NCBI GenBank assembly: GCA_037893245.1
Contig: JBAIAA010000100.1
Coordinates: forward strand, 124,001 to 188,000
Length of the DNA: 64,000 nucleotides
Direction of reading: 5' to 3'
Origin: Crossaster papposus
Taxonomy: Eukaryota > Echinodermata > Asteroidea > Velatida > Solasteridae
Part shown: positions 3,184 to 42,100 of the stretch, one piece after another
Layout: every line of letters starts with the position of its first letter
How positions within the stretch are numbered: position 1 is the first letter of the stretch
Notes under the pieces: model-generated
What the model saw: only the letters and a program-made list of their open reading frames with translations
Told to the model about the DNA's origin: nothing
The model's database searches: none
Position numbers and translations under genes: made by a program

Positions 3184-5684
3184 ATTTCGTGATCTGAAGG
3201 TAAATAGTGCCGAAAAGTGTTTGTAAGGCTCAATGGGCGCTATAGAGCATTTGGGAGTGTTGTTAGTCAATTTCGTGATCTTACGGTAAATAGTGCCGAA
3301 AAGTGTTTGTTAGGCTCAATGGGCGCTATAGAGCATTTGGGAGTGTTGTAAGTCAATTTCGTGATCTGACAGTGAAAAGTGCGGAAAAGTGTTTGTTAGG
3401 CTCAATGGGCGCTATAGAGCATTTGGGAGTGTTGTAAGTCAATTTTGTGATCTGACCGTGAAAAGTGCCAAAAAGTGTTTGTTAGGCTCAATGGGCGCTA
3501 TAGAGCATTTGGGAGTATTGTAAGTCAATTTCGTGATCTGAAGGTAAAAAGTGCCAAAAAGTGTTTCTTACGCTCAATGGGCGCTATAGAGCATTTTGGA
3601 GTGTTGTAAGTCCATTTCGTGATCTGAAGGTAAATAGTGCCGAAAAGTGTTTGTTAGGCTCAATGGGCGCTATAGAGCATTTGGGAGTGTTGTTAGTCAA
3701 TTTCGTGATCTGAAGGTAAATAGTGCCGAAAAGTGTTTGTTAGGCTCAATGGGCGCTATAGACCATTTGGGAGTATTGTAAGTCAATTTCGTGATCTGAA
3801 GGTAAATAGTGCCGAAAAGTGTTTGTTAGGCTCAATAGGCGCTATAGAGCATTTGGGAGTGTTGTAAGTCAATTTCGTGATCTGACGGTGAAAAGTGCCG
3901 AAAAGTGTTTGTTAGGCTCAATGGGCGCTATAGACCATTTGGGAGTATTGTAAGTCAATTTCGTGATCTGAAGGTAAATAGTGCCGAAAAGTGTTTGTTA
4001 GGCTCAATTGGCGCTATAGAGCATTTTGGAGTGTTGTAAGTCCATTTCGTGATCTGAAGGTAAATAGTGCCGAAAAGTGTTTGTTAGGCTCAATGGGCGC
4101 TATAGAGCATAGAGCATTTTGGAGTGTCCATAGTCCATTTCGTGATCTGAAGGTAAATAGTGCCGAAAAGTGTTTGTTAGGCTCAATGGGCGCTATAGAC
4201 CATTTGGGAGTGTTGTAAGTCAATTTCGTGATCTGACTGTGAAAAGTGCCGAAAAGTGTTTGTTAGGCTCAATGGGCTCTATAGACCATTTTGGAGTGTT
4301 GTTAGTCAATTTCGTGATCTGAAGGTAAATAGTGCCGAAAAGTGTTTGTTAGGCTCAATGGGCGCTATAAACCATTTTGGAGTGTTGTAAGTCCATTTCG
4401 TGATCTGAAGGTAAATAGTGCCAAAAAGTGTTTGTTAGGCTCAATGGGCGCTATAGAGCATTTGGGAGTGTTGTAAGTCAATTTCGTGATCTGACTGTGA
4501 AAAGTGCCGAAAAGTGTTTGTTAGGCTCAATGGGCTCTATAGACCATTTTGGAGTGTTGTTAGTCAATTTCGTGATCTGAAGGTAAATAGTGCCGAAAAG
4601 TGTTTGTTACGCTCAATGGGCGCTATAAACCATTTTGGAGTGTTGTAAGTCCATTTCGTGATCTGAAGGTCAATAGTGCCAAAAAGTGTTTGTTAGGCTC
4701 AATGGGCGCTATAGAGCATTTGGGAGTGTTGTTAGTCAATTTCGTGATCTGACAGTGAAAAGTGCCCAAAAGTGTTTGTTAGGCTCAATGGGCGCTATAG
4801 AGCATTTGGGAGTGTTGTAAGTCAATTTTGTGATCTGACCGTGAAAAGTGCCAAAAAGTGTTTGTTAGGCTCAATGGGCGCTATAGAGCATTTGGGAGTA
4901 TTGTAAGTCAATTTTGTGATCTGAAGGTAAATAGTGCCAAAAAGTGTTTCTTACGCTCAATGGGCGCTATAGAGCATTTTGGAGTGTTGTAAGTCCATTT
5001 CGTGATCTGAAGGTAAATAGTGCCGAAAAGTGTTTGTTAGGCTCAATGGGCGATATAGAGCATTTGGGAGTGTTGTAAGTCAATTTCGTGATCTGACGGT
5101 GAAAAGTGCCGAAAAGTGTTTGTTAGGCTCAATGGGCGCTATAGAGCATTTGGGAGTATTGTAAGTCAATTTCGTGATCTGAAGGTAAAAAGTGCCGAAA
5201 AGTGTTTGTTAGGCTCAATGGGCGCTATAGACCATTTGGGAGTGTTGCAAGTCCATTTTGTGATCTGAAGGTAAATAGTGCCAAAAAGTGTTTCTTACGC
5301 TCAATGGGCGCTATAGAGCATTTTGGAGTGTTGTAAGTCCATTTCGTGATCTGAAGGTAAATAGTGCCGAAAAGTGTTTGTTTGGCTCAATGTGCGCTAT
5401 AGAGCATTTGGGAGTGTTGTTAGTCAATTTCGTGATCTGAAGGTAAATAGTGCAGAAAAGTGTTTGTTAGGCTCAATGGGCGCTATAGACCATTTGGGAG
5501 TGTTGGAAGTCCATTTTGTGATCTGAAGGTATATAGTGCCAAAAAGTGTTTCTTACGCTCAATGGGCGCTATAGACCATTTGGGAGTGTTGGAAGTCCAT
5601 TTTGTGATCTGAAGGTAAATAGTGCCAAAAAGTGTTTCTTACGCTCAATGGGCGCTATAAACCATTCTGGAGTGTTGTAAGTCC
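3184..5684 (+). repeat. Higher-order block of 29 monomers bounded by the TGTAAGG landmark
   Basis: It runs from one TGTAAGG monomer to the next; its length is 29 x 86 plus 7. The extra 7 bases are a local duplication at 4104-4117. The second half repeats variants found in the first block, such as GGGCGATATAG, GTTTGGCTCAATGTGC and GGTATATAG, in the same order. It looks like a shortened version of the neighbouring 37- and 40-monomer blocks. Confidence 0.83.
4104..4117 (+). repeat. 7-bp direct duplication inside one monomer
   Basis: AGAGCAT is present twice in a row, making this monomer (4044-4136) 93 bp instead of 86. The same monomer also ends with GTGTCCATAGTCC where others have GTGTTGTAAGTCC. 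I saw no second copy of this combination in the window, so it looks like a private and recent replication-slippage event. Confidence 0.9.
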
Positions 5685-25512: not shown

Positions 25513-28500
25513 GCAATGGGCGCTATAGAGAATTTTGGAGTGTTGTAAGTCCATTTCGTGATCTGAAGGTAAATAGTGCCGAAAAGTGTTTGTTAGGCTC
25601 AATGGGCGCTATAGAGCATTGAGTGTTGTTAGTCAATTTCGTGATCTGAAGGTAAATAGTGCCGAAAAGTGTTTTGTTAGGCTCAATGGGCGCTATAGAC
25701 CATCTGGGTAGTATTGTAAGTCAATTTCGTGATTCTGAAGGTAAAATAGCTGCCGAAAAGTGTTTGTTAGGCCTCAATGGGCGCTATAGAGATTTGGGAG
25801 TGTTGTAAGTCAATTTCGTGATCTGACGGTGAAAAGTGCCGAAAAGTGTTTGTTAGGCTCAATGGGCGCTATAGACCATTTTGAGTGTTGTAAGTCAATT
25901 TTCGTGATCTGACGGTGAAAAGTGCCGAAAAGTGTTTGTTAGGCTAAATGGGCTCTATAGACCATTTTGGAGTGTTGTTAGTCAATTTTTTGATCTGAAG
26001 GTAAATAGTGCCGAAAAGTGTTTTGTTACGCTCAATGGGCGCTATAGACCATTTGGGAGTGTTGGAAGTCCATTTTGTGGATCTGAAGGTATATAGTGCC
26101 AAAAAAGTGTTTCTTACGCTCAATGGGCGCTATAGACCATTTGGGAGTGTTGGAAGTCCATTTTGTGGATCTGAAGGTAAATAGTGCAAAAAGTGTTTCT
26201 TACGCTCAATGGGCGCTATAAAACCATTCTGGAGTGTTGTAAGTCATTTCGTGATCTGAAGGTAAATAGTGCCGAAAAGTGTTTGTAAGGCTCAATGGGC
26301 GCTATAGAGCATTTGGGAGTGTTGTAAGTCAATTTCGTGATCTGACCGTGAAAAGTGCCGAAAAGTGTTTGTTTAGGCTCAATGGGCGCTATAGAGCATT
26401 TGGGAGTGTTGTAAGTCAATTTTGTGATCTGACCGTGAAAGTGCCAAAAAGGTGTTTGTTAGGCTCAATGGGCGCTATAGAGCATTTGGGAGTGTTGTTA
26501 GTCAATTCGTGATCTGAAGGTAAAATAGTGCCGAAAAAGTGTTTGTTAGCTCAATGGGCGCTATAGACCATTTGGGAGTGTTGTAAGTCAATTTCGTGAT
26601 CTGACTGTGAAAAGTGCCGAAAAGTGTTTTGTTAGGCTCAATGGCTCTATAGACCATTTTGGAGTGTTGTTAGTCCACTTCGTGATCTGAAGGTAAATAG
26701 TGCCGAAAAGTGTTTGTACGTCCCAATGGGCCGCTATAAACCATTTTGGAGTGTTGTAAGTCCATTTCGTGATCTTGAAGTCAATAGTGCCAAAAAGTGT
26801 TTGTTAGGCTCAATGGGGCGCTATAGAGCATTTGGGAGTGTTGTTAGTCAATTTCGTGATCTGACAGTGAAAAGTGCCAAAAGTGTTTGTTAGGCTCAAT
26901 GGGCGCTATTAGAGCATTTGGGAGTGTTGTAAGTCAATTTGTGATCTGACCGTGAAAAGGTGCCAAAAAGTGTTTGTTAGGCCTCAATGGGCGCTATCGA
27001 GCATTTGGGAGAGTATTGTAAGTCATATTTTGTGATCTGAAGGAAATAGTGCCAAAAAGTGTTTCTTACGCTCAATGGGCGCTATAGAGCATTTTGGACG
27101 TGTTGTAAAGTCCCATTTCGTGATCTGAAGGTAAATAGTGCCGAAAGTGTTTGTTAGGCTCAATGGGCGATATAGAGCATTTGGGAGTGTTGTAAGTCAA
27201 TTTTGCTGATCTGACGGTGAAAAGTGCCGAAAAGGTGTTTGTTAGGCTCAATGGGCGCTATAGACGCATTTGGGAGTATTGTAAGTCAATTTCGTGATCT
27301 GAAGGTAAAAAGTGCCGAAAGTGTTTGTTAGGCTCAATGGGCGCTATAGACCATTTGGGAGTGTTGCAAGGTCCATTTGTGATCACTGAAGGTAAATAGT
27401 GCCAAAAAGTGTTTCTTACGCTCAATGGGCGCTTATAGAGCATTTTGGGAGTGTTGTAAGTCCATTCGTGATCTGAAGGTAAATAGTGCCGAAAAGTGTT
27501 TGTTTGGCTCAATGTGCGCTATAGAGCATTTGGGAGTGTTGTTAGTCAATTTCGTGATTGAAGGTAAATAGTGCCGAAAAGTGTTTGTTAGCTCAATGGC
27601 GCTATAGACCATTTGGGGAGTGTTGGAAGTCCATTTTGTGATCTGAAGGTATATAGTGCCAAAAAGTGTTTCTTACGCTCAATGGGCGCTATAGACCATT
27701 TGGAGTGTTGGGAAGTCCATTTTGTGATCTGAAGGTAAAAGTGCCACAAAAGTGTTTCTTACGCTCAATGGGCGCTATAAACCATTCTGGAGTGTTTGTA
27801 AGTCCATTTCGTGATCTGAAGGTAAATAGTGCCGAAAAGTGTTTGTAAGGCTCAATGGGCCGCTATAGAGCATTTGGGAGTGTTGTAAGTCAATTTCGTG
27901 ATCTGACCGTGAAAGTGCCGAAAAGTGTTTGTTAGGCTCAATGGGCGCTATAGAGCATTTGGGAGTGTTGTAAGTCAATTTTGTGATCTGACCGTGAAAA
28001 GTGCCAAAAAGTGTTTGTTAGGCTCAATGGGCGCTATAGAGCATTTGGGAGTGTTGTTAGTCAATTCGTGATCTCTACGGTAAATAGTGCCGAAAAGTGT
28101 TTGTTAGGCTCAATGGGCGCTATAGAGCATTTGGGAGTGTTGTAAGTCAATTTCGTGATCTGACAGTGAAAAGTGCGGAAAAGTGTTTGTTAGCTCAATG
28201 GGCGCTATAGAGCATTTGGGAGTGTTGAAGTCAATTTTGTGATCTGACCGTGAAAAGTGCCAAAAAGTGTTTGTTAGGCTCCAATGGGGCGCTATAGAGC
28301 ATTTGGGAGTATTGTAAGTCAATTTCGTGATCTGAAGGTAAAAGTGCCAAAAAGGTGTTTCTTTTACGCTCAATGGGCGCTATAGAGAATTTTGGAGTGT
28401 TGTAAGTCCATTTCGTGATCTGAAGGTAAATAGTGCCGAAAGTGTTTGTTAGGCTCAATGGGCGCATATAGAGCATTTGGGAGTGTTGTTAGTCAATTTC

Positions 28501-31500
28501 GTGATATGAAGGTAAATAGTGCCAAAAAGTGTTTCTTACGCTCAATGGGCGCTACTAGACCATTTGGGAGTATTGTAAGTCAATTTCGTGATCTGAAGGT
28601 AAATAGTGCCGAAAAGTGTTTGTTAGGCTCAATGGGCGCTATAGAGCATTTGGGAGTGTTGTAAGTCAATTTCGTGATCTGACGGTGAAAAAGTGCCGAA
28701 AAGTGTTTGTTAGGCTCAATGGGCGCTATAGACCATTTTGGAGTGTTGTAAGTCAATTCTCGTGATCTGAGCGGTGAAAGTGCCGAAAAGTGTTTGTTAG
28801 GGCTAAATGGGCTCTATAGACCATTTTGGAGTGTTGTTAGTCAATTTTGTGATCTGAAGGTAAATAGTGCCGAAAAGTGTTTGTTACGCTCAATGGGCGC
28901 TATAGACCATTTGGGAGTGTTGGAAGTCCATTTTTGTGATCTGAAGGTATATAGTGCCAAAAAGTGTTTCTTACGCTCAATGGGCGCTATAGACCATTTT
29001 GGGAGTGTTGGAAGTCCATTTTGTGATCTGAAGGTAATAGTGCCAAAAAGTGTTTCTTACGCTCAATGGGCGCTATAAACCATTCTGGAGTGTTTGTAAG
29101 TCCAATTTCGTGATCTGAAGGTAAATAGTGCCGAAAAGTGTTTGTAAGGCTCAATGGGCTGCTATAGGACATTTGGGAGTGTTGTAAGTCAATTCGTGAT
29201 CTGACCGTGAAAGTGCACGAAAAGTGTTTGTTAGGCTCAATGGGCGCTATAGAGCATTTGGGAGTGTTGTAAGTCAATTTGTGTATCTGACCGTGAAAAG
29301 TGCCAAAAAGTGTTTGTTAGGCTCAATGGGGCCTATAGAGCATTTGGGAGTGTTGTTAGTCAATTTCGTGATCTTACGGTAAATAGTGCCGAAAAGTGTT
29401 TGTTAGGCTCAATGGCGGCCTTATGAGCATTTTGGAGTGTTGTAAGTCAATTTCGTGATCTGACAGTGAAAAGTGCGGAAAAGTGTTTGTAGGCCTCAAT
29501 GGGCGCTATAGAGCATTAGGGAGTGTTGTAAGTCAATTTTGTGATCTGACCGTGAAAAGTGCCAAAAAGTGTTTGTTAGGCTCAATGGGCGCTATAGAGC
29601 ATTTGGGAGTATTGTAGTCAATTTCCGTGATCTGAAGGTAAACGTGCCAAAAAAGTGTTTTTTACGCTCAAATGGGCGCTATAGAGAATTTTGGAGTGTT
29701 GTAAGTCCATTTCGTGATCTGAAGGTAAATAGTGCCCGAAAAGTGTTTGTTAGGCTCAAATGGGCGCTATAGAGCATTTGGAGTGTTGTTAGTCAATTTC
29801 GTGATCTGAAGGGTTAAATAGTGCCGAAAAGTGTTTGTTAGGCTCAATGGGCGTATAGACCATTTGGGAGTATTGTAAGTCAATTTCGTGATTTGAAGGT
29901 AAATAGTGCCGAAAAGTGGTTTGTTAGGCTCAATGGGCGCTATAGAGCATTTGGGAGTGTTGTAAGTCCAATTTCGTGATCTGACGGTGAAAAGTGCCGA
30001 AAAAGTGTTTGTTAGTGCTCAGATGGGGCGCTATAGACCATTTTGGAGTGTTGTAAGTCAATTTCGTGATCTGACGGTGAAAAAGTGCCGAAAAGTGTTT
30101 TGTTAGGCTAAATGTGCTCTATAGACCCATTTTGGAGTGTTGCTAGTCAATTTTTGTGATCTGAAGGAATATAGTGCCGAAAAGTGTTTGTTAGGCTCAA
30201 TGGGCGCTATAGAGCATTGGGAGTGTTGTAAGTCAATTTTGTGATCTGACCGTGAAAAGTGCCAAAAGTGTTTTGTTAGGCTCAATGGGGCGCTATAAGA
30301 GCATTTGGAGGAATTGTAAGTCAATTTCGTGACTCTGAAGGTAAAAAGTTGCCAAAAAGTGTTTTTTACGCTCAATGGGCCTATAGAGAATTTTGGAGTG
30401 TTGTAAGTCCATTTCGTGATCTGAAGGTAAATAGTGCCAGAACAGTGTTTGTTAGGTCTCAATGGGGCCTATAGAGCATTTGGGAGTGTTGTTAGTCAAT
30501 TTCGTGATCTGAAGGTAAATAGTGCCGAAAAGTGTTTGTTATGGCTCAATGGGCGCTATAGCCCCCCCATTTGGGAGTATTGTAAGTCAATTTCGTGATC
30601 TGAAGGTAAATAGTGCCCGAAAAGTGTTTGTTAGGCTCAATGGCGCTATAGAGCATTTTGGAGTGTTGTAAGTCCAATATTCGTGATCTGACGCGTGAAA
30701 AGTGCCGAAAAGTGTTTGTTAGGCTCAATGGGCGCTATAGACCATTTTGAGTGTTGTAAGTCAATTTCGTGATCTGACGGTGAAAAGTGCCGAAAAGTGT
30801 TTTGTTAGGCATAAATGGGCTCTATAGACCATTTTGGAGTGTTGTTAGTCACTTTTGTGATCTGAAGGTAAATAGTGCCGAAAAGTGTTTGTTACGCTCA
30901 ATGGGCGCTATAAACCCATTTTGAGTGTTGTAAAGTCCATTTCGTGATCTGAAGGTAAATAGTGCCAAAAAGTGTTTGTTAGGCTCAATGGGCGCTATAG
31001 AGCATTTGGAGTGTTGTGTAGTCAAATTTCGTGATCTGACAGTGAAAAGTGCCGAAAAGTGTTTGTTAGGCTCAATGGCGCTATAGAGCATTTGGAGTGT
31101 TGTAAGTCAATTTTGTGATCTGACCGTGAAAAGTGCCCAAAAAGTGTTTGTTAGCCTCAATGGGCGCTATAGAGCTATTTGGGAGTATTGTAAGTCAATT
31201 TCGTGATCTGAAGGTAAAAAGTGCAAAAAGTGTTTCTTACGCCCAATGGGCGCTATAGAGCATTTTGGAGTGTTGTAAGTCCATTTCGTGATCTGAAGGT
31301 AAATAGTGCCGAAAAGTGTTTGTTAGGCTCAATGGGCGCTATAGACCATTTGGGAGTGTTGGAAGTCTATTTTGTGATCTGAAGGTAAATAGTGCCAAAA
31401 AGTGTTTTCTTACGCTCAATGGGCGCTATAAAACCATTCTGGAGTGTTGTAAGTCCATTTCGTGATCTGAAGGTAAATAGTGCCGAAAAGTGTTTGTTAG

Positions 31501-33494
31501 GCTCAATGGGCCGTATAGAGCATTTGGGAGTGTTGTTAGTCAATTTCGTGATCTGAAGGTAAATAGTGCCGAAAAGTGTTTGTTAGGCTCAATGGCGCTA
31601 TAGACCATTTGGGAGTGTGTGTAAGTCAATTTCGTGATCCTGACTGTGAAAAGTGCCGAAAAGGTTTGTTAGGTCAATGGGCGCTATAGAGCATTTGGGA
31701 GTGTTGTAAGTCAATTTTGTGATCTGACCGTGAAAAGTGCCAAAAAGTGTTTGTTAGGCTCAATGGGCGGCTATAGAGCAGTTGGGAGTGTTGTTAGTCA
31801 ATTTCGTGATCTTACGGTAAATAGTGCCGAAAAGTGTTTGTTAGGCTCAATGGGGCGCTATAGAGCATTTGGGAGTGTTGTAAGTCAATTTCGTGATCTG
31901 ACAGTGAAAAGTGCCGAAAAGTGTTTGTTAGGCTCAATGGGCGCTATTGAGCATTTGGGAGTGTTGTAAGTCAATTTCGTGATCTGAAGGTAAATAGTGC
32001 CGAAAAGTGTTTGTCTAGCTCAATGGGCGCTATAAGAGCATTTGGGATTGTTGTAGTCAATTTTGTGATCTGACGTGAAAAGTGCAAAAAGTGTTTGTTA
32101 GGTTCAATGGGCGCTATAGAGCATTTGGAGTATTGTAAGTCAATTTCGTGATCTGAAGGTGAAATAGTGCCGAAAAGTGTTTGTTAGGCTCAATGGGCGC
32201 TATAGAAGCATTTGGAGTGTTGTTAGTCAATTTCGTGATCTGAAGGTAAATAGTGCCGAAAAGTGTTTTGTTAGCTCAATGGGCTCTATAGACCATTTTG
32301 GAGTGTTGTAGTCAATTCGTGATCTGAAGGTAAATAGGTGCCGAAAAGTGTTTGTTAGCTACAATGGGCGCTATAGAGCATTTGGGAGTGTTGTAAGTCA
32401 ATTTCGTGATCTGACGGTGAAAAGTGCCGAAAAGTGTTTGTTAGGCTCAATGGGCTCTATAGACCATTTTTGGAGTGTTGTTAGTCAATTTCGTGATCTG
32501 AAGGTAAATAGTGCCGAAAAGTGTTTGTTACGCTCTAATGGGCGCTATAAACCATTTTGGAGGTGTTGTAAGTCCATTTCGTGATCTGAAGGTAAAATAG
32601 TGCCAAAAAAGTGTTTCTTAACGCTCAATGGGCGCTATAGACCATTTGGGAGTGTTGGAAGTCCTTTTGTGATCTGAAGGTAAATAGTGCCAAAAAGTGT
32701 TTCTTACGCTCAATGGGCGCTATAAACCATTCTGGAGTGTTGTAAGTCCATTTCGTGATCTGAAGGTAAATAGTGCCGAAAAGTGTTTGTAAGGCTCAAT
32801 GGGCCGCTATAGAGCATTTGGGAGTGTTGTAAGTCACATTTCGTGATCTGACCGTGAAAAGTGCCCGAAAAGTGTTTGTTAGGCTCAATGGGCGCTATAG
32901 AGCATTTGGGGAGTGTTGTAAGTCAATTTTGTGATCTGACCGTGAAAACGTGTCAAAAAGTGTTTGTTAGGCTCAATGGGCGCTATAGAGCATTTGGGAG
33001 TGTTGTTAGTCCAATTTCGTGATCTTACGGTAAATAGGGCCGAAAAGTGTTTTGTTAGGCTCAATGGGCGCTATAGAGCATTTGGGAGTGTTGTAAGTCA
33101 ATTTCGTGATCTGACAGTGAAAAGTGCGGCAAAAGGTGTTTGTTTTAGGCTCCAATGGGCGTCCTATAGAGCATTTGGGAGTGTTGTAGTCAATTTTGTG
33201 ATCTGACCGTGAAAAGTGCCAAAAAAGTGTTTGTTAGGCTCAATGGGCGCTATAGAGCATTTGGGAGTATTGTAAGTCAATTTCGTGATCTGAAGGTAAA
33301 AAGTGCCAAAAAGTGTTTTTTTACGCTCAATGGGCGCTATAGAGAATTTTGGAGTGTTGTAAGTCCATTTCGTGATCTGAGGTAAATAGTGCCGAAAAGT
33401 GTTTGTTAGGCTCAATGGGCGCTATAGAGCATTTGGAGTGTTGTTAGTCAATTTCGTGATCTGAAGGTAAATAGTGCCAAAAAGTGTTTCTTAA
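25513..33494 (+). other. Indel-rich satellite segment, probably unpolished long-read sequence
   Basis: Up to about 25,510 the monomers keep an exact 86-bp phase with only a handful of indels in 25 kb. From GCTGCAATGG near 25,512 the sequence carries roughly one single-base insertion or deletion every 60-90 bases (by eye, not counted), both in homopolymers and outside them, for example AATAGCTGCC near 25,745 and a run of seven C at 30,562-30,568 where GACC is expected. At 33,495 the exact phase returns. The monomer types are the same as in clean neighbours, so this is the same satellite. The error spectrum and sharp edges suggest raw noisy-read consensus, not biological decay. Landmark TGTAAGG monomers begin near 26,246, 27,806, 29,105 and 32,750. 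Confidence 0.88.
33451..33494 (+). repeat. Truncated monomer at an abrupt junction
   Basis: This monomer is cut after TTTCTTA, about 44 bases in, and a fresh ATTTCGTGATC starts at 33,495. It is the only place I found where two monomers join out of phase by about half a unit, and it coincides exactly with the end of the noisy segment. It is best explained as an assembly join; a real half-monomer deletion is the alternative. Confidence 0.85.
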
Positions 33495-35730: not shown

Positions 35731-37018
35731 ATTTCGTGATCTGAAGGTAAATAGTGCCGAAAAGTGTTTGTAAGGCTCAATGGGCGCTATAGAGCATTTG
35801 GGAGTGTTGTAAGTCAATTTCGTGATCTGACCGTGAAAAGTGCCGAAAAGTGTTTGTTAGGCTCAATGGGCGCTATAGAGCATTTGGGAGTGTTGTAAGT
35901 CAATTTTGTGATCTGACCGTGAAAAGTGCCAAAAAGTGTTTGTTAGGCTCAATGGCGCTATAGAGCATTTGGGAGTGTTGTTAGTCAATTCGTGATCTTA
36001 CGGTAAATAGTGCCGAAAAGTGTTTGTTAGGCTCAATGGGCGCTATAGAGCATTTGGGAGTGTTGTAAGTCAATTTCGTGATCTGACAGTGAAAAGTGCG
36101 GAAAAGTGTTTGTTAGGCTCAATGGGCGCTATAGAGCATTTGGGAGTGTTGTAAGTCAATTTTGTGATCTGACCGTGAAAAGTGCCAAAAAGTGTTTGTT
36201 AGGCTCAATGGGCGCTATAGAGCATTTGGGAGTATTGTAAGTCAATTTCGTGATCTGAAGGTAAAAAGTGCCAAAAAGTGTTTTTTACGCTCAATGGGCG
36301 CTATAGAGAATTTTGGAGTGTTGTAAGTCCATTTCGTGATCTGAAGGTAAATAGTGCCGAAAAGTGTTTGTTAGGCTCAATGGGCGCTATAGAGCATTTG
36401 GGAGTGTTGTTAGTCAATTTCGTGATCTGAAGGTAAATAGTGCCAAAAAGTGTTTCTTACGCTCAATGGGCGCTATAGACCATTTGGGAGTATTGTAAGT
36501 CAATTTCGTGATCTGAAGGTAAATAGTGCCGAAAAGTGTTTGTTAGGCTCAATGGGCGCTATAGAGCATTTGGGAGTGTTGTAAGTCAATTTCGTGATCT
36601 GACGGTGAAAAGTGCCGAAAAGTGTTTGTTAGGCTCAATGGGCGCTATAGACCATTTTGGAGTGTTGTAAGTCAATTTCGTGATCTGACGGTGAAAAGTG
36701 CCGAAAAGTGTTTGTTAGGCTAAATGGGCTCTATAGACCATTTTGGAGTGTTGTTAGTCAATTTTGTGATCTGAAGGTAAATAGTGCCGAAAAGTGTTTG
36801 TTACGCTCAATGGGCGCTATAGACCATTTGGGAGTGTTGGAAGTCCATTTTGTGATCTGAAGGTATATAGTGCCAAAAAGTGTTTCTTACGCTCAATGGG
36901 CGCTATAGACCATTTGGGAGTGTTGGAAGTCCATTTTGTGATCTGAAGGTAAATAGTGCCAAAAAGTGTTTCTTACGCTCAATGGGCGCTATAAACCATT
37001 CTGGAGTGTTGTAAGTCC
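35731..37018 (+). repeat. Landmark block of 15 monomers
   Basis: It is 1,288 bp, 15 x 86 minus 2. The two missing bases are single-base losses near 35,955 (AATGGCGC) and 35,990 (CAATTCG). The monomer order, including a GCCA CTTACGC GACC GTATTG monomer near 36,440 and GGCTAAATGGGCTC near 36,720, equals that of the noisy block 27,806-29,104. Confidence 0.85.
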
Positions 37019-39165
37019 ATTTCGTGATCTGAAGGTAAATAGTGCCGAAAAGTGTTTGTAAGGCTCAATGGGCGCTATAGAGCATTTGGGAGTGTTGTAA
37101 GTCAATTTCGTGATCTGACCGTGAAAAGTGCCGAAAAGTGTTTGTTAGGCTCAATGGGCGCTATAGAGCATTTGGGAGTGTTGTAAGTCAATTTTGTGAT
37201 CTGACCGTGAAAAGTGCCAAAAAGTGTTTGTTAGGCTCAATGGGCGCTATAGAGCATTTGGGAGTGTTGTTAGTCAATTTCGTGATCTTACGGTAAATAG
37301 TGCCGAAAAGTGTTTGTTAGGCTCAATGGGCGCTATAGAGCATTTGGGAGTGTTGTAAGTCAATTTCGTGATCTGACAGTGAAAAGTGCGGAAAAGTGTT
37401 TGTTAGGCTCAATGGGCGCTATAGAGCATTTGGGAGTGTTGTAAGTCAATTTTGTGATCTGACCGTGAAAAGTGCCAAAAAGTGTTTGTTAGGCTCAATG
37501 GGCGCTATAGAGCATTTGGGAGTATTGTAAGTCAATTTCGTGATCTGAAGGTAAAAAGTGCCAAAAAGTGTTTTTACGCTCAATGGGCGCTATAGAGAAT
37601 TTTGGAGTGTTGTAAGTCCATTTCGTGATCTGAAGGTAAATAGTGCCGAAAGTGTTTGTTAGGCTCAATGGGCGCTATAGAGCATTTGGGAGTGTTGTTA
37701 GTCAATTTCGTGATCTGAAGGTAAATAGTGCCGAAAAGTGTTTGTTAGGCTCAATGGGCGCTATAGACCATTTGGGAGTATTGTAAGTCAATTTCGTGAT
37801 TTGAAGGTAAATAGTGCCGAAAAGTGTTTGTTAGGCTCAATGGGCGCTATAGAGCATTTGGGAGTGTTGTAAGTCAATTTCGTGATCTGACGGTGAAAAG
37901 TGCCGAAAAGTGTTTGTTAGGCTCAATGGGCGCTATAGACCATTTTGGAGTGTTGTAAGTCAATTTCGTGATCTGACGGTGAAAAGTGCCGAAAAGTGTT
38001 TGTTAGGCTAAATGGGCTCTATAGACCATTTTGGAGTGTTGTTAGTCAATTTTGTGATCTGAAGGTAAATAGTGCCGAAAAGTGTTTGTTAGGATCAATG
38101 GGCGCTATAGAGCATTTGGGAGTGTTGTAAGTCAATTTTGTGATCTGACCGTGAAAAGTGCCAAAAAGTGTTTGTTAGGCTCAATGGGCGCTATAGAGCA
38201 TTTGGGAGTATTGTAAGTCAATTTCGTGATCTGAAGGTAAAAAGTGCCAAAAAGTGTTTTTTACGCTCAATGGGCGCTATAGAGAATTTTGGAGTGTTGT
38301 AAGTCCATTTCGTGATCTGAAGGTAAATAGTGCCGAAAAGTGTTTGTTAGGCTCAATGGGCGCTATAGAGCATTTGGGAGTGTTGTTAGTCAATTTCGTG
38401 ATCTGAAGGTAAATAGTGCCGAAAAGTGTTTGTTAGGCTCAATGGGCGCTATAGACCATTTGGGAGTATTGTAAGTCAATTTCGTGATCTGAAGGTAAAT
38501 AGTGCCGAAAAGTGTTTGTTAGGCTCAATGGGCGCTATAGAGCATTTGGGAGTGTTGTAAGTCAATTTCGTGATCTGACGGTGAAAAGTGCCGAAAAGTG
38601 TTTGTTAGGCTCAATGGGCGCTATAGACCATTTTGGAGTGTTGTAAGTCAATTTCGTGATCTGACGGTGAAAAGTGCCGAAAAGTGTTTGTTAGGCTAAA
38701 TGGGCTCTATAGACCATTTTGGAGTGTTGTTAGTCAATTTTGTGATCTGAAGGTAAATAGTGCCGAAAAGTGTTTGTTACGCTCAATGGGCGCTATAAAC
38801 CATTTTGGAGTGTTGTAAGTCCATTTCGTGATCTGAAGGTAAATAGTGCCAAAAAGTGTTTGTTAGGCTCAATGGGCGCTATAGAGCATTTGGGAGTGTT
38901 GTTAGTCAATTTCGTGATCTGACAGTGAAAAGTGCCGAAAAGTGTTTGTTAGGCTCAATGGGCGCTATAGAGCATTTGGGAGTGTTGTAAGTCAATTTTG
39001 TGATCTGACCGTGAAAAGTGCCAAAAAGTGTTTGTTAGGCTCAATGGCGCTATAGAGCATTTGGGAGTATTGTAAGTCAATTTCGTGATCTGAAGGTAAA
39101 AAGTGCCAAAAAGTGTTTCTTACGCCCAATGGGCGCTATAGAGCATTTTGGAGTGTTGTAAGTCC
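37019..39165 (+). repeat. Clean monomers with a few residual indels
   Basis: About 25 monomers start with the TGTAAGG landmark. They include GATTTGAAGG near 37,799, two GGCTAAATGGGCTC monomers, and CTTACGCCC near 39,120. Single-base losses occur near 37,575, 37,650 and 39,046. The order matches the noisy stretch from 29,105. Confidence 0.82.
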
Positions 39166-42100
39166 ATTTCGTGATCTGAAGGTAAATAGTGCCGAAAAGT
39201 GTTTGTTAGGCTCAATGGGCGCTATAGACCATTTGGGAGTGTTGGAAGTCTATTTTGTGATCTGAAGGTAAATAGTGCCAAAAAGTGTTTCTTACGCTCA
39301 ATGGGCGCTATAAACCATTCTGGAGTGTTGTAAGTCCATTTCGTGATCTGAAGGTAAATAGTGCCGAAAAGTGTTTGTTAGGCTCAATGGGCGCTATAGA
39401 GCATTTGGGAGTGTTGTTAGTCAATTTCGTGATCTGAAGGTAAATAGTGCCGAAAAGTGTTTGTTAGGCTCAATGGGGCGCTATAGACCATTTGGGAGTG
39501 TTGTAAGTCAATTTCGTGATCTGACTGTGAAAAGTGCCGAAAAGTGTTTGTTAGGCTCAATGGGCGCTATAGAGCATTTGGGAGTGTTGTAAGTCAATTT
39601 TGTGATCTGACCGTGAAAAGTGCCAAAAAGTGTTTGTTAGGCTCAATGGGCGCTATAGAGCAGTTGGGAGTGTTGTTAGTCAATTTCGTGATCTTACGGT
39701 AAATAGTGCCGAAAAGTGTTTGTTAGGCTCAATGGGCGCTATAGAGCATTTGGGAGTGTTGTAAGTCAATTTCGTGATCTGACAGTGAAAAGTGCCGAAA
39801 AGTGTTTGTTAGGCTCAATGGGCGCTATAGAGCATTTGGGAGTGTTGTAAGTCAATTTCGTGATCTGAAGGTAAATAGTGCCGAAAAGTGTTTGTTAGGC
39901 TCAATGGGCGCTATAGAGCATTTGGGAGTGTTGTAAGTCAATTTTGTGATCTGACCGTGAAAAGTGCCAAAAAGTGTTTGTTAGGTTCAATGGGCGCTAT
40001 AGAGCATTTGGGAGTATTGTAAGTCAATTTCGTGATCTGAAGGTAAATAGTGCCGAAAAGTGTTTGTTAGGCTCAATGGGCGCTATAGAGCATTTGGGAG
40101 TGTTGTTAGTCAATTTCGTGATCTGAAGGTAAATAGTGCCGAAAAGTGTTTGTTAGGCTCAATGGGCTCTATAGACCATTTTGGAGTGTTGTTAGTCAAT
40201 TTCGTGATCTGAAGGTAAATAGTGCCGAAAAGTGTTTGTTAGGCTCAATGGGCGCTATAGAGCATTTGGGAGTGTTGTAAGTCAATTTCGTGATCTGACG
40301 GTGAAAAGTGCCGAAAAGTGTTTGTTAGGCTCAATGGGCTCTATAGACCATTTTGGAGTGTTGTTAGTCAATTTCGTGATCTGAAGGTAAATAGTGCCGA
40401 AAAGTGTTTGTTACGCTCAATGGGCGCTATAAACCATTTTGGAGTGTTGTAAGTCCATTTCGTGATCTGAAGGTAAATAGTGCCAAAAAGGTTTTGTTAG
40501 GCTCAATGGGCGCTATAGAGCATTTTGGAGTGTTTGTAAGTCCATTTCGTGATCTGAAGGTAAATAGTGCCGAAAAGTGTTTGTTAGGCTCAATGGGCGC
40601 TATAGAGCATTTGGGAGTGTTGTTAGTCAATTTCGTGATCTGAAGGTAAATAGTGTCGAAAAGTGTTTGTTAGGCTCAATGGGCGCTATAGACCATTTGG
40701 GAGTGTTGTAAGTCAATTTCGTGATCTGACTGTGAAAAGTGCCGAAAAGTGTTTGTTACGCTCAATGGGCGCTATAAACCATTTTGGAGTGTTGTAAGTC
40801 CATTTCGTGATCTGAAGGTAAATAGTGCCAAAAAGTGTTTGTTAGGCTCAATGGGCGCTATAGAGCATTTGGGAGTGTTGTTAGTCAATTTCGTGATCTG
40901 ACAGTGAAAAGTGCCCAAAAGTGTTTGTTAGGCTCAATGGGCGCTATAGAGCATTTGGGAGTGTTGTAAGTCAATTTTGTGATCTGACCGTGAAAAGTGC
41001 CAAAAAGTGTTTGTTAGGCTCAATGGGCGCTATAGAGCATTTGGGAGTATTGTAAGTCAATTTTGTGATCTGAAGGTAAATAGTGCCAAAAAGTGTTTCT
41101 TACGCTCAATGGCGCTATAGAGCATTTTGGAGTGTCGTAAGTTCATTCGTGATCTGAAGGTAAATAGTGCCGAAAAGTGTTTGTTAGGCTCAATGGGCGA
41201 TATAGAGCATTTGGGAGTGTTGTAAGTCAATTTCGTGATCTGACGGTGAAAAGTGCCGAAAAGTGTTTGTTAGGCTCAATGGGCGCTATAGAGCATTTGG
41301 GAGTATTGTAAGTCAATTTCGTGATCTGAAGGTAAAAAGTGCCGAAAAGTGTTTGTTAGGCTCAATGGGCGCTATAGACCATTTGGGAGTGTTGGAAGTC
41401 CATTTTGTGATCTGAAGGTAAATAGTGCCAAAAAGTGTTTCTTACGCTCAATGGGCGCTATAGAGCATTTTGGAGTGTTGTAAGTCCATTTCGTGATCTG
41501 AAGGTAAATAGTGCCGAAAAGTGTTTGTTTGGCTCAATGTGCGCTATAGAGCATTTGGGAGTGTTGTTAGTCAATTTCGTGACCTGAAGGTAAATAGTGC
41601 AGAAAAGTGTTTGTTAGGCTCAATGGGCGCTATAGACCATTTGGGAGTGTTGGAAGTCCATTTTGTGATCTGAAGGTATATAGTGCCAAAAAGTGTTTCT
41701 TACGCTCAATGGGCGCTATAGACCATTTGGGAGTGTTGGAAGTCCATTTTGTGATCTGAAGGTAAATAGTGCCAAAAAGTGTTTCTTACGCTCAATGGGC
41801 GCTATAAACCATTCTGGAGTGTTGTAAGTCCATTTCGTGATCTGAAGGTAAATAGTGCCGAAAAGTGTTTGTAAGGCTCAATGGGCGCTATAGAGCATTT
41901 GGGAGTGTTGTTAGTCAATTTCGTGATCTTACGGTAAATAGTGCCGAAAAGTGTTTGTTAGGCTCAATGGGCGCTATAGAGCATTTGGGAGTGTTGTAAG
42001 TCAATTTCGTGATCTGAAGGTAAATAGTGCCGAAAAGTGTTTGTTAGGCTCAATGGGCGCTATAGACCATTTGGGAGTATTGTAAGTCAATTTCGTGATC

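Follow-up and report, generated by a model that had tools for sequence, protein, structure and literature searches.

The question raised by this locus is whether a sharply delimited, indel-rich stretch within a satellite array reflects biology or a flaw in the assembly. The window, i.e. the whole stretch of DNA that was analysed, comprises 64,000 bp and corresponds to bases 124,001-188,000 of contig JBAIAA010000100.1 (C100; 240,488 bp), in an assembly of 1.02 Gb and 1,841 contigs. An 86-bp satellite covers C100 over its full length, with many monomer types in recurring orders, and an intact 56-mer of the satellite was found 11,378 times by pattern search of the 1.02-Gb assembly. The first 4 kb of the window, compared with phage records, gave no match, a 23-base piece of the satellite was not found in a literature text search, and '86 bp' was absent among the matches listed in a literature search on the satellite. 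The features considered are:

1-64,000, forward strand: 86-bp satellite array, reported by TRF as a single array over the window

25,513-33,450, no strand: noisy stretch with about 25 small indels per kb, mostly insertions

33,451-33,494, no strand: truncated monomer of 44 bp, lacking 42 bp, with an off-register junction, at the right edge of the noisy stretch

35,953-41,145, no strand: thin tail of 10 small indels to the right of the noisy stretch, belonging to a 17.5-kb segment with a rate of 0.68 per kb

Indels were called by wrap-around alignment to the 86-bp consensus, and the rate counts cover events of up to 4 bp. The sequence-only reading had described single-base indels as very dense in 25,513-33,494, with sharp edges, and the counts confirm this: 197 of the 211 small indel events in the window lie inside the segment, while the remaining 56,018 bp hold 14, a rate ratio of 99 (binomial p 3e-158). 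Poisson segmentation placed the edges at about 25,500 and 33,450 (contig 149,501-157,450); indel events begin at 25,513, and the last that involves a single base lies at 33,434. Inside the segment the density is flat, with Poisson-like counts per 500 bp (index of dispersion 0.98). The 1-kb bins from 26,001 to 33,000 hold 17-33 inserted plus deleted bases each, and most other bins hold few or none. Mismatches to the consensus run at 35-63 per kb across the whole window without a clear rise in the segment, because most of them are normal monomer variants. The statement that indels are almost absent on both sides holds overall, but not for the ten-event tail at 35,953-41,145 or for three larger indels of 7, 11 and 10 bp. 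The latter two are an 11-bp inserted stretch (4 + 7) at about 50,049 and a 10-bp deletion at about 59,698, both in clean surrounding array. The first, a 7-bp insertion at window position 4,102, yields a 93-bp monomer and is found at other places on C100 as well. Since it recurs (nine 93-bp monomers on the contig, in two forms, each seen more than once), it looks like a real variant of the array.

The monomer types themselves are unchanged in the noisy segment, as had also been noted from the sequence. Of its 91 neighbour pairs of monomer types, 79 occur elsewhere on C100, and the clean part of the contig has 2,563 such pairs, 2,232 of them combinations that recur. The segment is normal in its monomer types and in their order, which recurs to the same degree as in the flanks.

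To characterise the differences, each noisy monomer was matched to its closest counterpart in a library of 120 monomer sequences that occur two or more times in clean C100, a choice that biases the edit counts slightly downward; pieces of 71 bp or less were excluded. Over 92 monomers (7,985 bp) this gave 141 inserted, 68 deleted and 47 substituted bases, i.e. a substitution:insertion:deletion ratio of about 18:55:27 and a total error of 3.2%. Clean monomers compared with the same library showed 0.14 edits per 100 bp, all kinds taken together. Insertion events outnumber deletion events about 2:1 (131 vs 66). The indel density is far above that of the flanks (99-fold) and substitutions are little raised (0.59 per 100 bp), the combination that an artefact would give. 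The inserted bases are compatible with an even use of the four letters (p 0.55) and reject the composition of the template (p 2e-6), which is 13% C; those of a second noisy tract, at the start of the contig, likewise fit a uniform four-letter mix (p 0.46). Pure slippage is expected to copy neighbouring bases, and 49 of the 141 inserted bases match neither neighbour, which makes the spectrum error-like. The remaining 92 copy a neighbour, against 43% expected for random insertion, and deletions are commoner in runs and rarer at single bases. Many inserted bases foreign to their neighbours are a mark of PacBio-type error.

These properties suggest that the noisy stretch is most likely an assembly flaw and not biology, and we consider it almost certain that 25,513-33,494 is uncorrected long-read sequence, whatever its route into the assembly. 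As to monomer types and order it is real satellite-array DNA, with a base-level sequence that carries about 3% error. The platform was probably PacBio. The simulator settings for substitution:insertion:deletion given in PMC9713900 are 22:45:33 for Sequel CLR and 39:24:36 for ONT RNA and cDNA reads, and the ratio in the segment is nearer to the former. Judged by these settings, PacBio is favoured over ONT because of the insertion excess and the random inserted bases. In one raw PacBio data set tabulated in PMC5964698 deletions exceed insertions, which is a caution on the platform, not on the artefact.

Similar tracts of read length occur elsewhere in the assembly, contig ends included, and three of them were checked base by base. 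The one at C100:1-11,950 has 35 events per kb with insertions over deletions at about 7:1; its 135 monomers (11,961 bp) contain 394 inserted, 50 deleted and 84 substituted bases. On contig C522 the indel rate rises stepwise toward the contig end (1.1, 9.9 and 38.8 per kb), and on contig C94 it passes through 3, 51, 19 and 0.45 per kb around a 9.75-kb noisy tract. Both tracts behave as thin coverage would. Further tracts are suggested by matches to two markers, each a satellite pattern with one extra base. These gave 85 and 55 matches, 140 in total in the assembly, and on C100 10 of 11 matches fell within the two tracts that are noisy, which make up some 20 of its 240 kb, so the markers work. 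As raw counts, the 140 matches form 54 clusters at 6-kb linking, 29 of which are single matches, while 16 clusters with at least three matches contain 93 of the 140, the widest spanning 13.2 kb. Four of these 16 reach a contig end and 12 do not. Among the 133 matches on contigs of known length (seven were left out), 53 lie within 14 kb of a contig end, a raw count given without a null model; satellite arrays tend to break assemblies in any case.

Scattered single-base indels were also observed on C100 at about 39-73 kb and 222-234 kb, at 0.3-0.7 per kb in the surrounding segments. In the two stretches counted, insertions and deletions numbered 15 vs 18 and 4 vs 7. With deletions slightly ahead, unlike in the tracts, this thin noise may be another class of error; perhaps the scatter reflects lower depth. 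Dense 'indels' at two places on contig C2 were considered as noise and rejected. At about 454.97-458.8 kb some 4 kb of inserted non-satellite sequence interrupts the array, and no open frame listed there reaches 100 aa. The non-satellite sequence from about 497.3 kb carries retroelement domains (matches to SCAN, integrase, reverse transcriptase and RNase H) and is presumably a Ty3/gypsy-like retroelement.

The edges of the noisy stretch differ. On the right the next monomer starts directly after the 44-bp cut monomer, and a 28-mer across this junction occurs once in the assembly by pattern search. The cut monomer implies an off-register join on at least one side of the stretch. No junction was seen at the left edge at 25,513. 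A 51-bp deletion closes the contig-start tract on the right, and one of 22 bp lies on the left side of the C94 tract; in the remainder of C100 the biggest deletion among the events listed is 16 bp.

We infer low read depth, PacBio chemistry and a failure of correction at this stretch. In such a scenario it would have been covered by one or very few low-accuracy reads of about 3% error, and the assembler would have had no other reads with which to correct the noisy middle. Overlapping reads would have corrected the flanks, giving the sharp left edge. On the right side the noisy sequence would have been joined off-register, with a loss of 42 bp of monomer. The sequence-only reading had proposed raw long-read sequence left in the assembly, for instance through a gap patch or a stretch where polishing failed. 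The uncorrected long-read part of this proposal is supported by the spectrum, the right junction, the noise at the contig start and the tracts on other contigs, whereas the word raw needs qualifying: the total error of 3.2% is several-fold below that of single-pass PacBio, and a few-pass read or very thin coverage therefore fits better than a fully raw read. For comparison, the simulations in PMC9713900 have 10-20% error for a single pass and 0.99% for five passes, and the raw data set tabulated in PMC5964698 has 16.6%. Fewer than five passes could give a few per cent. Counting against an artefact are the 92 neighbour-copying insertions, the excess of shared indels in the segment, clear without context control (see below), and the 12 larger marker clusters that lie off contig ends.

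A sub-case of uncorrected long-read sequence is a gap patch, where the space separating two clean contigs was closed with a separate tool or from a second, noisier data set, and not along the assembler's own path of thin coverage. We see this as a possible but rather doubtful route. On C100 each of the two noisy tracts has an off-register junction at its right edge, and these, together with the deletion on the left of the C94 tract, look like splices. However, the left edge at 25,513 is without a junction, and noise is also present at a contig start and at a contig end, places that offer no gap for filling; at the latter it rises stepwise.

If the indels were real, repeat copies might be expected to share them. 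Shared indels were counted between copies of the same monomer type and compared with shuffles in which the local sequence context was controlled. In the segment 15 indels are shared, where the context-controlled shuffles average 10.2 (sd 3.0, p 0.10). Without context control the excess is clear, with 0.122 shared per pair vs 0.056 and none of 300 shuffles as high, which taken alone would favour inherited indels; the control raised the chance mean, so that the excess fell from about 8 to about 5 and lost significance without vanishing. Six of the 15 shared pairs stem from a GGG run that loses one G in four of the eight copies of one monomer type, and three shared indels belong to one pair of repeat copies separated by 1,299 bp. 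The repeat offset that performed best gave 15 aligned pairs, carrying 36 and 31 indels, of which 3 are shared; the majority of indels therefore did not spread together with the repeats. One 30-mer that contains two indels of the segment was searched for and has a single occurrence in 1.02 Gb. In the contig-start tract 24 indels are shared against a context-controlled mean of 27.3 (p 0.78), which shows that indels there are independent between repeat copies.

A real, locally hypermutated satellite segment, produced by an error-prone copying or repair event, is very improbable. A repair tract could account for sharp edges with a large deletion at one of them, and same-type copies do share somewhat more indels than the chance mean. 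Yet most indels would then be common to local copies, which 3 of 36 and 31 are not, although mutation after the last duplication is outside the reach of this comparison. The inserted bases are uniform in composition with a third foreign to their neighbours, substitutions are few, and similar tracts are found at the contig start and stepping up to a contig end, all of which count against such an event. We give an equally slim chance to a variant in which error-prone copying, with random insertion of single bases, produced a real satellite patch here and patches like it at other satellite sites of the genome. The least credible explanation is decay with age in an old, inactive stretch of array. 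Such decay, as the sequence-only reading had argued, would give substitutions and affect neighbours as well, whereas 47 substituted bases stand against 209 inserted or deleted ones, the flanks are clean and the order of monomers recurs as it does there; apart from the differences themselves, nothing was found in favour of decay.

Uncorrected long-read sequence makes the noisy stretch an ordinary assembly artefact, correctly spotted from the letters, and of low interest as biology. It has practical consequences nevertheless. Before monomers are dated, repeat structure is analysed or mutation rates are studied, indel-rich tracts of the 86-bp array should be masked, and copy number and continuity at the junction at 33,494 are unreliable. 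Scanning an array for bursts of indels against its own consensus indicates such tracts and can serve as a quality check that requires no reads.

Comparable flaws are known. According to PMC12667832, HiFi-read assemblers correct each read with supporting reads, and ONT ultra-long assemblies contain small erroneous contigs built from few high-error reads. Low-depth uncorrected stretches in long-read assemblies resemble the present case in their indel-rich sequence in repeats and at contig ends. The difference is that the stretch described here is also contig-interior. The coverage dropouts of HiFi data described for HiCanu (PMC7545148) would be alike in that accurate coverage is lost locally, provided that the depth at this stretch is in fact low. 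In that description the dropouts are tied to long A/G- or T/C-rich low-complexity sequence, whereas the noisy stretch consists of the same monomers as its clean flanks.
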